This document shows positions 51,331 to 54,685 of a stretch of DNA of 64,000 bases, one piece after another. Position 1 is the first letter of the stretch, and the number at the start of each line of letters is the position of its first letter. The notes beneath the pieces are model-generated. The model was not told the DNA's origin, searched no databases, and saw only the letters and a program-made list of their open reading frames with translations. The translations under genes and the position numbers were made by a program. This DNA comes from Pseudopedobacter saltans DSM 12145 (lineage in GTDB: Bacteria > Bacteroidota > Bacteroidia > Sphingobacteriales > Sphingobacteriaceae): the NCBI RefSeq assembly GCF_000190735.1, contig NC_015177.1, positions 3,348,001-3,412,000 on the forward strand, given 5' to 3'.

Positions 51331-52113
51331 TTAAATTAGAGCGACAAAGTCTCTCATGGCCTGAGCCGGATCTGAGGTCTTCATAAAATTTTCCCCAATT
51401 AAAAATCCGTCAAATCCTGCTTTTTTAAGCATTTTTACCGTTTCCGGATTGCTTATTGCGCTTTCCGAAATCTTTAAAAATTCAGTCGGTATAGTTTCGG
51501 CCAATTGTAAGGATGTTTCTACTGACACTGAAAAATCTTTGAGATTCCTGTTATTTACACCAACGACATCAATATATTGGTTTAAACTATAATCCAATTC
51601 GTCCTGACCGTGTACTTCCAGCAAAGTACTTAATCCCAAAGATTTCGCTAATTCGGCAAAACGCTTAGTCTCCTCTGCTGTTAAACAAGCTGCTATTAAC
51701 AAAATAATATCTGCACCAATAGCCTTCGCCTCGATTATCTGAAACTCATCTACCATAAAATCTTTTCGTAGAATGGGAATACCATTCACTTTTCTCGCTG
51801 CTATCAAATCATCTTCATGCCCCATGAAGAAATCCTTATCCGTTAAAACTGATAAAGCCGATGCGCCTGCCGATGCATATCCGGTGGTAACTTGCTCTAC
51901 AGAAACCTTATCATTGATAATTCCTTTCGATGGAGATTTTCTTTTAAACTCCGCAATTATACCAGTTTTACTAGGATCTTTCAGGAAATCTGTCAGCTTA
52001 TAGGTTTCCCTGTGGAACGAAAAGCTTTTTTCCAGATCCTGAATAGTATATTTCTTCTTTGCCTCAACAACTTCCTCCTTTTTCCTGGCTACAATTTTAT
52101 CAAGAATATTCAT
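51331..52113 (-). CDS. trpC: Indole-3-glycerol-phosphate synthase
   Basis: Closes the indole ring in tryptophan synthesis. The 260-residue (beta/alpha)8 protein starts MNILDKIVARKKEEVVEAKK; IAEFKRKSPSKGIIN holds catalytic and phosphate-binding lysines, ILRKDFMVDEFQIIEAKAIG another catalytic Lys, and VVGVNNRNLKDFSV and KISESAISNP the remaining signature. It is the last gene of the trp unit in this window, 76 bases after trpG, and no terminator-like hairpin is obvious after it. Confidence 0.96.
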   Translation of the reverse strand: MNILDKIVARKKEEVVEAKKKYTIQDLEKSFSFHRETYKLTDFLKDPSKTGIIAEFKRKSPSKGIINDKVSVEQVTTGYASAGASALSVLTDKDFFMGHEDDLIAARKVNGIPILRKDFMVDEFQIIEAKAIGADIILLIAACLTAEETKRFAELAKSLGLSTLLEVHGQDELDYSLNQYIDVVGVNNRNLKDFSVSVETSLQLAETIPTEFLKISESAISNPETVKMLKKAGFDGFLIGENFMKTSDPAQAMRDFVALI

Positions 52114-52189: not shown

Positions 52190-52768
52190 CTACTCACCAT
52201 TATTCAGCCAATTGGCAATCATCTCCTTACCATATTCTGTCAGAACAGATTCTGGATGGAACTGCACTCCCCGTACATCAAATTTTTTGTGTCGGAGAGC
52301 CATAATAACTCCGTTTGCATCTACAGCAGTTACTTCCAGATCAGCTGGCAAATTCTCTGCTTCAACAGCCCATGAATGATATCTCCCAACTTTAAACTGT
52401 TTAGGAAGATCATTAAACACCACATCGCTATCGCTAACTACGTTTATGTCTGTGGCAGTTCCGTGTACAGGACGGTTTAAATTATATAACTTTCCTCCAA
52501 AAACTTCCGCTATAGCCTGTTGTCCTAAACAAACCCCCAAAATACTTTTGGTTGCTGCGTATTTTTCTATTACAGCTAAGAGTAAACCTGCTTCCGAGGG
52601 TATCCCCGGACCCGGAGAAAGTAGAATCTTATCATATTGTTCCACATCTTCCAGAGTAAATTTATCATTTCTGATAACGGTTGGCTCGTGGCCCAATTCG
52701 TTTAAGAGATGTACCAGATTATAGGTAAACGAATCGTAATTATCTACGACTAATATCTTTGTGCTCAT
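52190..52768 (-). CDS. trpG: Anthranilate synthase component II (glutamine amidotransferase)
   Basis: Supplies ammonia from glutamine to TrpE. The ATG at 52768 gives 192 residues, MSTKILVVDNYDSFTYNLVH. Class I amidotransferase triad: Cys in ILGVCLGQQAIAEVFGG, and His and Glu in VQFHPESVL. The oxyanion loop is LLSPGPGIP. The start overlaps the chorismate mutase stop (ATGA), which implies coupling. Its adjacency to trpE and the Trp attenuator make TrpG more likely than PabA, though a double role is possible. Confidence 0.94.
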   Translation of the reverse strand: MSTKILVVDNYDSFTYNLVHLLNELGHEPTVIRNDKFTLEDVEQYDKILLSPGPGIPSEAGLLLAVIEKYAATKSILGVCLGQQAIAEVFGGKLYNLNRPVHGTATDINVVSDSDVVFNDLPKQFKVGRYHSWAVEAENLPADLEVTAVDANGVIMALRHKKFDVRGVQFHPESVLTEYGKEMIANWLNNGE

Positions 52769-53061
52769 AATCTTTCTTTCCAATTATGTAATTCTTCGGC
52801 GACGAAGTAAGCCACCAAATCTCTATATATTTTTTCAATAATTTCCGGGCTTATATTTTCTTCCGCCGCCCATATTTTGCGGATCTTTAACATAGTCTCT
52901 ACACGATCAGCTGCTCTTACATCCCGCTCACTGCTTTTAAATTCAGCTGCCTTTTTCACATATTCTGCCCTTCTGCCAATCAACCCGATAAGTTCACGAT
53001 CTATAAAATCTATGCTATCCCTCACGTCCCGAATATTTTTACAGTCTGCCGTACTTTTCAT
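52765..53061 (-). CDS. Chorismate mutase type II (AroQ), within the trp operon
   Basis: A 98-residue all-helical AroQ-fold protein. The N-terminal helix IRDVRDSIDFIDRELIGLIG carries the conserved Arg and Asp, with RRAEYVKKAAEFKSS and EIIEKIYRDLVAYFVAEELH following. Such proteins convert chorismate to prephenate, or in the PchB branch isochorismate to pyruvate and salicylate; nothing here points to siderophore synthesis. The start shares a base with the trpE stop (TAATG), and the end overlaps trpG by 4 bases, so it is translated in step with anthranilate synthase, although it diverts the same substrate to Phe/Tyr. Confidence 0.85.
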   Translation of the reverse strand: MKSTADCKNIRDVRDSIDFIDRELIGLIGRRAEYVKKAAEFKSSERDVRAADRVETMLKIRKIWAAEENISPEIIEKIYRDLVAYFVAEELHNWKERL

Positions 53062-54473
53062 TATATGCTTTCCGCCATAATAATGGCATTTCTAAGCGCT
53101 GCAATTTTGTTATTAACCTCATTCAGCTCGCTTTCAGGATCAGAGTCTGCAACAATTCCTGCTCCGGCCTGATAGTGAAGAATATTTTCCTTACTTAAAA
53201 AAGAACGGATCATGATTGCATGGTTAAAATCTCCATTGAATCCCGAAAAACCTATGGCTCCACTGTAAAAACTTCTTTTGATGTTTTCATTTTCATCGAT
53301 AATTTCCATCGCCCTGTATTTAGGCGCACCACTTAACGTTCCGGCTGGAAAAGTATCTGCAACAACTTTAAAAGAGTTGATACCACTTTTCAAATGACCG
53401 CTCACTTTCGAAACCAAATGGATAAGATGTGAATAGAACTGAACCTCTTTATAGGCTTTTACCTGTACGTTTTCACAATGGCGGCTTAAGTCATTTCTAG
53501 CCAGATCCACCAGCATTACATGTTCGGCAGATTCTTTGGGGTCATTCTCTAAACGTTCTGCAATGGCTTTATCTTCGTTGTCATTGCCAGAACGCTTAAA
53601 AGTCCCTGCAATAGGGAATATACTAGCTACATTATTTTTAATGGTTAACTGCGCTTCCGGCGATGACCCGAAAATTTTATAGCTTCCATAATCAAAATAG
53701 AACAGATACGGAGACGGGTTGATTGATCTAAGCGCTCGGTATACGTTAAACTCATCTCCAAGGAAAGGTGTCTTAAACGCTCTCGACGGAACTATCTGAA
53801 AAACATCTCCTCTATAAATATGTTCCTTCATTTTTAAGACCAAAGCCTTAAACTCCTCGTCTGTAAAGTTTGAAGTTTCCTGACCATTCACAGAGAAATT
53901 ATATTCTGGGAAGTTTTTATTTTGTATAAGGTACTCTACTTTGTCTACGTTATTCGTTTCTGTATCAAATTCACTTTCATTTTTTACGATATACAGCTCG
54001 TTTTTAAAGTGATTTATAGCAATAATATAACGATAAACATGATACTGCATTGTTGGTATCTTACGTTCATCATTCTCATCTGCTTTCAGTGTGATATCTT
54101 CAAAATGCTCGATCGCTTCGTGGGTAAAATAACCAAAAAGGCCATCTGTTATAAATTTATGATTTACATCTGCATCACTTTCAAAACTTTGTCTGAAATT
54201 ACTGATTTCATCTACCAGATTAAAAGTTCCGGGTTCCTGTATTTCACTATTTCCGTCCGGATATACTTTGGTTAATATCCCGTCCTCCAGTTTTATACCG
54301 GCAATTGGCTCGCAACAAACAAAGCTCATACTATTTTCGCGGCTGTGATAATCCGAGCTTTCCAGCAGGATAGTATTTGCAAAAATATCTCGCAGGCGCA
54401 AGTATATGGCAACTGGTGTTGTTGTGTCTGCCAACAATCTTTTATGTATAACGTTGATCTTATATTTTTTCAT
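53061..54473 (-). CDS. trpE: Anthranilate synthase component I
   Basis: Converts chorismate and ammonia to anthranilate. The 470-residue product has the N-terminal regulatory part with the Trp-binding LLESSDYHSRENSMSFVCCE and the chorismate-binding C-terminal domain with GDVFQIVPSRAF, PSPYLFYFDYGSYKIFGSSP, PIAGTFKRSG, MLVDLARNDLSRHCENVQVK and TFPAGTLSGAPKYRAMEIID. The LLES element used for feedback inhibition indicates TrpE rather than PabB. It is the first structural gene after the attenuator at 54506-54649. Confidence 0.95.
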   Translation of the reverse strand: MKKYKINVIHKRLLADTTTPVAIYLRLRDIFANTILLESSDYHSRENSMSFVCCEPIAGIKLEDGILTKVYPDGNSEIQEPGTFNLVDEISNFRQSFESDADVNHKFITDGLFGYFTHEAIEHFEDITLKADENDERKIPTMQYHVYRYIIAINHFKNELYIVKNESEFDTETNNVDKVEYLIQNKNFPEYNFSVNGQETSNFTDEEFKALVLKMKEHIYRGDVFQIVPSRAFKTPFLGDEFNVYRALRSINPSPYLFYFDYGSYKIFGSSPEAQLTIKNNVASIFPIAGTFKRSGNDNEDKAIAERLENDPKESAEHVMLVDLARNDLSRHCENVQVKAYKEVQFYSHLIHLVSKVSGHLKSGINSFKVVADTFPAGTLSGAPKYRAMEIIDENENIKRSFYSGAIGFSGFNGDFNHAIMIRSFLSKENILHYQAGAGIVADSDPESELNEVNNKIAALRNAIIMAESI

Positions 54474-54505
54474 TTTACTTCTTTTATTTAAATTTTGTAA
54501 TGAAC

Positions 54506-54533
54506 AAAAAAACCCGACTTTTTACGCCGGGTT
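54506..54533 (-). terminator. Attenuator terminator of the trp operon
   Basis: On the minus strand AACCCG (54533-54528) pairs with CGGGTT (54516-54511), extended by a G-U and a C-G pair, with loop GTAAAAA, and is followed by a T run (54512-54506). It lies 33 bases before the trpE ATG, inside the leader. Confidence 0.85.
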
Positions 54534-54594
54534 ATATTTGCTTTTAGGTTTAAGTTGATAATTTCTTTTCAAAACATACAAATACATTATCCGG
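54527..54594 (-). promoter_or_regulatory. Predicted antiterminator of the trp leader
   Basis: On the minus strand CCGG (54594-54591) and TATTTG (54584-54579) can pair with CCGG (54530-54527) and CAAATA (54540-54535), with an internal loop. This takes up the 5' arm of the terminator. An upstream perfect hairpin TGGCATA / TATGCCA, which starts in the third Trp codon of the leader peptide, competes by position when the ribosome has moved on. The pairing is a hand prediction. Confidence 0.5.
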
Positions 54595-54649
54595 GTTGGC
54601 ATATTTTATGCCACCACCACTTTTTAGATATATTTGTTTTTTTGTTCAT
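54587..54649 (-). CDS. trpL: trp leader peptide
   Basis: A 20-codon frame, MNKKTNISKKWWWHKICQPG, on the minus strand between the trp promoter and trpE. Three consecutive TGG codons (residues 11-13, 54619-54611) in a 20-residue peptide directly before anthranilate synthase are diagnostic of ribosome-mediated attenuation. The start ATG at 54649 lies only a few bases after the predicted start of transcription, so the message may be almost leaderless. The stop codon is followed by the antiterminator and terminator segments. A 'Bacteroid-trp' RNA motif with short Trp-rich frames has, from memory, been described in this phylum; this is probably a member or close relative. Confidence 0.85.
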   Translation of the reverse strand: MNKKTNISKKWWWHKICQPG

Positions 54650-54657
54650 TACAATAG

Positions 54658-54685
54658 CAAAATTATAAAGAAATTTGAATTTCAA
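54658..54685 (-). promoter_or_regulatory. trp operon promoter
   Basis: Minus-strand TTG (54685-54683), 17 bases, TAATTTTG (54665-54658): a TAnnTTTG -7 element with allowed spacing. The start of transcription would be near 54652, just before the leader-peptide ATG. Confidence 0.6.

Follow-up and report, generated by a model that had tools for sequence, protein, structure and literature searches.

In Escherichia coli-type trp attenuators (Rfam family RF00513), a leader peptide with tandem Trp codons is combined with mutually exclusive 1:2, 2:3 and 3:4 stems, the terminator being located before trpE. The leader in front of trpE of the soil bacterium considered here (Pedobacter) looks like a genuine RNA switch of identical logic; however, it differs from the E. 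coli type in its Bacteroidota promoter, in an ORF preceded by approximately 3 nt of predicted transcript, and in its stems. A Trp leader of the same phylum, Bacteroid-trp (RF01692), has been described by Weinberg et al. (2010; PMC2864571). In Flavobacterium psychrophilum, also of this phylum, leader-peptide attenuators of amino-acid operons have been inferred (PMC9723704) and a Bacteroid-trp element has been reported upstream of the trp operon (PMC6414381); this bacterium, however, belongs to another family, and the available portions of these papers do not describe the sequence class of our leader. Short ORFs reminiscent of leader peptides were reported in Bacteroides thetaiotaomicron (PMC7366714). 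Finally, trpL of Sinorhizobium meliloti is leaderless, its RNA starting at the leader ATG; trpE is separate from trpDC, and the attenuator RNA acts in trans on the trpDC mRNA (PMC7298713). The host family resembles S. meliloti in having a Trp attenuator RNA that would begin at or near the leader ATG and trpE split from the trpD unit, but its trpD has a leader of its own. No report of leader-peptide trp attenuation in Pedobacter/Bacteroidetes was found in the open-licence literature, though it may have been published elsewhere.

The principle is a textbook one and ordinary in kind; the version found before trpE is kept across the bacterial family of the host and is unrecognized by Rfam. The leader is a well-supported case of a known kind, the noteworthy points being that the split pathway carries two Trp leaders of different kinds and that the start is probably near-leaderless. 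All leader elements that had been described from the letters are present in the window (the whole analyzed stretch of 64,000 nucleotides, from a genome consisting of one contig of 4,635,236 bases), on the minus strand upstream of trpE:

54686-54683, minus strand: -33-type box TTTG (Bacteroidota consensus as quoted in PMC7366714)
54665-54658, minus strand: -7 box TAATTTTG (TAnnTTTG)
54654-54636, minus strand: 5' arm of a 19-nt perfect inverted repeat, spanning the leader start codon
54653, minus strand: predicted transcription start, about 3-4 nt 5' of the leader ATG (from the box placement in F. psychrophilum)
54649-54587, minus strand: leader peptide ORF MNKKTNISKKWWWHKICQPG, 20 codons, stop codon TAA at 54589-54587 (translation)
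54637-54628, minus strand: region 1 (ACAAATATAT), predicted partner in naked RNA 54587-54578 (fold)
54619-54611, minus strand: three consecutive Trp codons
54613-54597, minus strand: 7-bp hairpin TGGCATA (54613-54607) / TATGCCA (54603-54597) with an AAA loop
54594-54579, minus strand: region 2, CCGG (54594-54591) and TATTTG (54584-54579), antiterminator helix in the masked fold
54540-54527, minus strand: region 3, CAAATA (54540-54535) and CCGG (54530-54527), common to antiterminator and terminator (masked fold, covariation)
54533-54506, minus strand: intrinsic terminator AACCCGGC (54533-54526) / GTCGGGTT (54518-54511), then a T run to 54506 (sequence; covariation in 40 relatives)
54513-54495, minus strand: 3' arm of the 19-nt inverted repeat, comprising the last base of the CGGG of the terminator stem, the T run and the following bases
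53061-54473, minus strand: trpE, anthranilate synthase component I (Pfam PF00425, PF04715)
52765-53061, minus strand: chorismate mutase type II ORF between trpE and trpG (PF01817)
52190-52768, minus strand: trpG, GATase (PF00117)
51331-52113, minus strand: trpC, IGPS (PF00218)

The sequence-only reading had proposed a consensus-type promoter; a promoter is indeed present, but it is of the Bacteroidota type, with 17 nt between the two boxes, and a sigma-70 scan misses it. The proposed 20-residue frame with three consecutive Trp codons was found as predicted. Six short ORFs (8-45 codons) start 3-13 nt past a TAnnTTTG box on either strand of the 64-kb window, and the trpE leader ORF is the sole one among them with WW or WxW. 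The terminator and T run, likewise named beforehand, are in place, 37 nt separating the stem from the trpE start codon. The leader RNA folds with a z-score of -4.26, none of 200 shuffles being equally stable. The operon order is trpE, chorismate mutase type II, trpG, trpC; given the position of the chorismate mutase ORF, an enzyme of a competing chorismate branch would share the control exerted by the trpE leader.

The leader is very probably a ribosome-mediated transcription attenuator controlling trpE and the genes behind it. A short ORF with Trp codons, which in such systems are usually tandem, lies upstream of a trp gene, an intrinsic terminator lies between this ORF and the structural gene, and, according to the computed folds, a ribosome stalled on Trp would leave open an antiterminator that excludes the terminator. 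We infer the start site, translation, stalling and termination in the cell as follows. Transcription would begin about 3 nt ahead of the 20-codon leader ORF; a ribosome would load at the extreme 5' end and then trail RNA polymerase. When charged tRNA-Trp is scarce, it would stall on the three Trp codons and cover region 1, leaving region 2 (beyond the Trp codons, around the stop codon) open to pair with region 3; this pairing would occupy the 5' arm of the terminator, and transcription would proceed into trpE. When Trp is plentiful, the ribosome would reach the stop codon and cover region 2, and the terminator would form. With the ribosome absent, regions 1 and 2 could pair, likewise freeing the terminator.

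A trpE gene (E up to 1e-100) is present in 234 of 251 genomes of the host family; the closest named trpE relatives are assigned to Pedobacter, Pseudopedobacter and Pelobium, and the remainder mostly to Mucilaginibacter. Conservation was computed over 90 trpE loci from 16 genera (the one in the window, its 29 best matches, and 60 hand-picked to spread over the genera; a second trpE match in genome G143 was left out). An ORF with Trp codons occupies the same place in all 90 leaders. In 89 it was located by script with loose patterns, as a Trp-containing ORF of 8-40 codons starting (87 ATG, 2 GTG) 3-13 nt past a -7-type box; the Trp patterns in these are WW (47), WWW (33), WLW (4), WQW (1), WCW (1) and lone W (3). 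The 90th leader (L044), outside the search bound of the script and added by hand, carries WQW and has TTTTTG six nt upstream of its ATG, so that in total 80 leaders have WW or WWW, seven WxW, and three a lone W. A strict TAnnTTTG box precedes the leader ATG or GTG by no more than 30 nt in 80 of the 90 leaders. A terminator is found in all of them (89 by script, and an imperfect stem placed by hand in L029). Three leaders of genus g3 (L033-L035) show only one Trp codon where the Trp run normally lies, and two of these three carry another Trp near the end; four of genus g14 (L045, L046, L047 and L068) have WLW, with one codon between the Trp codons.

Both stems covary. With 40 of the 90 leaders (hand-picked for diversity, that of the window excluded) aligned by MAFFT, the terminator changes on both sides in six of nine pairs and is the best-conserved stem, with 97.8% of cells paired; the pairing falls to 25-51% when the alignment is slid by 1-3 columns. 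For the antiterminator (CCGG...TATTTG with CAAATA...CCGG, as first read by eye), five of eight pairs change on both sides, 78.3% of cells are paired, and sliding reduces this to 24-45%. Double-change cells number 29 against 9.3 shuffled for the terminator and 24 against 11.3 for the antiterminator, neither value being reached in 500 shuffles, which ignore the relatedness of the sequences. The numbers of further pair types are unremarkable (89 and 90 of 500 shuffles attain them), and the number of double-change pairs in the antiterminator is reached by 47 of 500. Column 144 in region 3 covaries with both column 162 (AU 20, GC 15) and column 62 (CG 17, UA 12), the antiterminator columns 62:144 being unpaired in 11 of 40 sequences. 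Within the genus of the host, the window has CCGG:CCGG, whereas 13 of 15 other leaders have UCGG:CCGA; region 2 reads UCGG in all 15, facing CCCGA in 13 and CCTGA in two. In L046 regions 2, 3 and 4 are all changed together, while its relative L047 has the change in region 2 without a matching one in region 3. The alignment of relatives that had been suggested as a check thus bears out both the Trp-codon ORF (90/90) and the covarying stems.

The behavior of the competing structures was modelled by masked folding, in which the RNA extended to the base before the 3' arm of the terminator and the bases covered by a ribosome (assumed to extend to 12 nt from the first base of the codon in the A site) were masked. 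The mean sequestration of the terminator 5' arm over 89 leaders was 0.55 in naked RNA, 0.77 with the second Trp codon in the A site, and 0.20 with the stop codon there; the values for the window leader were 0.57, 0.71 and 0.08, respectively. Sequestration exceeded 0.5 in 88 of 89 leaders stalled on the second Trp codon (the exception, L067, reaching 0.49) and in four of 89 at the stop codon, and the difference between the two states exceeded 0.3 in all 89. As naked RNA is intermediate, the state without translation is not cleanly "off" in the model. When the ribosome was walked codon by codon along the window leader, the fold remained permissive up to the second codon past the Trp run and thereafter dropped to 0.26, 0.04 and 0.01; the last permissive codon lies 2-4 codons past the Trp run in 58 of 90 leaders and 5-16 codons past it in the others. 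When the middle segment was dinucleotide-shuffled, the mean fell from the observed 0.77 to 0.49. Per leader the shuffles are only moderately convincing: at most two of 40 matched the observed stall value in 55 of 90 leaders, and three of 40 did so for the window. Conservation, the covariation of both stems and these modelled folds support the earlier suggestion that stalling at the Trp codons would favor the antiterminator.

The terminator could instead act constitutively or be controlled by a protein, TRAP-like or another RNA-binding regulator, the Trp-rich ORF being incidental. Such a reading would fit the terminator alone being the best-conserved stem and the competing stems already forming in naked RNA; however, it leaves the constant place of the Trp codons, with region 2 beginning 13-33 nt past the second Trp codon in the host-family leaders, to coincidence, and similar ORFs recur elsewhere. 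A short ORF with WW or WxW is located at most 420 nt before trpD in 27 of 30 trpD loci examined in the host family, and, in other families, at most 450 nt before trpE in 42 of the 44 loci examined (24 returned by the search and 20 picked, from 123 other-family genomes with trpE; this count is without a shuffle control). We therefore consider an incidental ORF very improbable. Still less credible is a tRNA-sensing T-box or a small-molecule riboswitch in place of the ribosome-sensed leader, as, beyond the presence of a structured 5' leader ahead of an amino-acid operon, no Rfam family reaches its gathering score anywhere in the window, with sub-threshold matches at E up to 10 in the 501 bases around the leader, and the recurring feature is an ORF with Trp codons. 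Among the loci counted above, those lacking WW or WxW are L297 (with 183 nt of upstream sequence covered), L298 and L303 before trpD, and L143 (family f16) and L145 (f27) before trpE of other families. L298 and L303 are both of the trpD loci examined in genus g3.

The 7-bp hairpin of the sequence-only reading is present in the window, but it is not conserved: it is absent as such from the alignments of relatives, and was rejected as an essential 1:2 stem. The stem that recurs upstream joins codons before the Trp run (54637-54628 in the window) to a stretch that begins at the stop codon and continues past it (54587-54578). The expected number of region 1:2 pairs averages 12.3 over the 90 leaders, against 6.4 shuffled, and amounts to 15.5 against 6.2 in the window, a value reached by none of 30 shuffles; taken singly, however, only 30 of the 90 leaders surpass 29 or more of their 30 shuffles, and five (L036, L037, L038, L042 and L044) do not rise above the shuffled mean. 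A helix related to the 7-bp hairpin joins the Trp codons to region 2; it is 85% paired in the 40-leader alignment, with no covariation seen; as fixed Trp codons would lead one to expect none, this helix counts neither way. The Trp codons pair downstream with a mean probability of 0.56, against 0.40 shuffled, and above 0.5 in 57 of 90 leaders.

The 5' end of the transcript is probably some 3 nt away from the start of the leader ORF. The -7 box of F. psychrophilum lies at -12 to -5 (PMC9723704), and, if this placement is carried over to the host family, the 5' UTR would equal the distance from box to start codon minus 4, giving a median of approximately 3 nt. By comparison, F. psychrophilum has a reported median 5' UTR of 24 nt and 5.5% leaderless mRNAs (PMC9723704); for B. 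thetaiotaomicron the reported median is 32 nt, some 3.7% being shorter than 10 nt (PMC7366714). In the other families examined, a strict -7 box was not found before many of the leaders; where present, its distance to the start codon is short in some and 16-20 nt in nine of 14 leaders from family f4, so that a near-leaderless start is not universal. The probable near-leaderless start in the host family would offer a clean setting for testing leader-peptide attenuation without a Shine-Dalgarno start.

The 19-nt inverted repeat that spans the leader start codon is longer than any found in 3000 shuffles (maximum 14). Its arms pair with a mean probability of 0.84 in the modelled read-through RNA, which would mask the leader ATG. 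It was rejected as a family feature, since comparable stretches in the other 89 leaders reach 9 at most.

A covariance model, R1, was built from the 40 aligned leaders, that of the window being left out. It recovers the window leader with 80.4 bits (E 1.1e-12), the next match in the window scoring 18.6 bits; genome-wide, the E-value is 8.2e-11 and the next match scores 34.6 bits. Eight further matches occur in the genome at E up to 5; by eye, the best four of them (26-35 bits) are terminators behind other genes and were rejected as copies of the trpE-type leader; the other four score 23-24 bits. In one of the best four (L264), the end of a gene additionally contains a GTG ORF that is out of frame and carries WW. 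A simple search of the genome for the pattern TTTG..ATG..TGGTGG was discarded as unspecific, with 90 matches against 46 for the reversed pattern. In 148 genomes of the phylum, searched with stricter filters, R1 exceeds 60 bits only in the six genomes of the host family, one of which (G021) contributed a leader to the model, and each time just upstream of trpE; among the weaker matches listed, 22 score 36-47 bits in 19 genomes, six of them directly before trpE. What had been a guess read by hand is now a regulatory element that covaries across the family and has a covariance model fit for use.

The suggested assignment to Bacteroid-trp was not upheld: RF01692 has no match to the trpE leader of the window at E up to 10 (gathering score 49), nor at E up to 1 in 20 of 89 related trpE loci, while the E. 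coli-type family RF00513 scores 17.3 bits (E 0.76) on this leader, below its gathering score of 41. In 61 genomes of the host family, RF01692 yields 41 matches at E up to 1 in 26 genomes, one of them over the cut-off. Set against the positions of trpE, trpD and 16 extra stretches, 21 of the 41 are found immediately before trpD, 16 of the 17 highest-scoring ones among them; the highest-scoring match of all sits at the end of a contig, where no gene can be seen behind it. Four matches, all sub-threshold, precede trpE (G038, 31.8 bits; G039, 31.2; G058, 30.7; G032, 29.0). Thirteen of the 24 weaker matches adjoin neither trpE nor trpD, and two weak ones in the host genome look like chance. The second Trp leader of the host (L102, G000:C1:1651306-1651421) encodes MVNTVVNIGWWICDLS, and scores 35.2 of the required 49 bits with RF01692; the ORFs behind it have Pfam matches that suit trpD, trpF and trpB. 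In the host family, the tryptophan pathway is thus divided over two units, each with a Trp leader of its own and the two leaders structurally different; the RF01692-like element occurs mainly before trpD. In family f4, on the other hand, an RF01692 match lies just upstream of trpE in all 14 genomes of the phylum sample, 11 of them over the cut-off, and none of the RF01692 matches there lies elsewhere.

It is possible, and we propose this tentatively, that in the host family the trpE and trpD units are each governed by a separate Trp attenuator that senses the ribosome, the two belonging to different RNA classes, with the trpE leader ORF translated from an almost leaderless transcript, that the two sensors could answer different degrees of Trp shortage, and that ribosome-sensed Trp attenuation is the usual control of trpE across much of the phylum. 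If so, Rfam sees a small part of Trp attenuation in this phylum (RF01692 being over its cut-off in 11 of 148 genomes, against Trp-codon ORFs in 42 of 44 loci), which indicates that Trp leaders of Bacteroidota are under-represented there. An action in trans on trpD mRNA by the terminated trpE leader, as in S. meliloti, was considered and found no support: over 23 genomes, the mean duplex energy is -45.45 for own pairs and -45.01 for swapped ones, and 20 of 23 trpD targets bind the window leader equally well or better than its own. A trpD gene was found in 49 of the 61 genomes; at G020:C77:51086-52071, the trpD match is in two pieces, with a stop codon inside the second.
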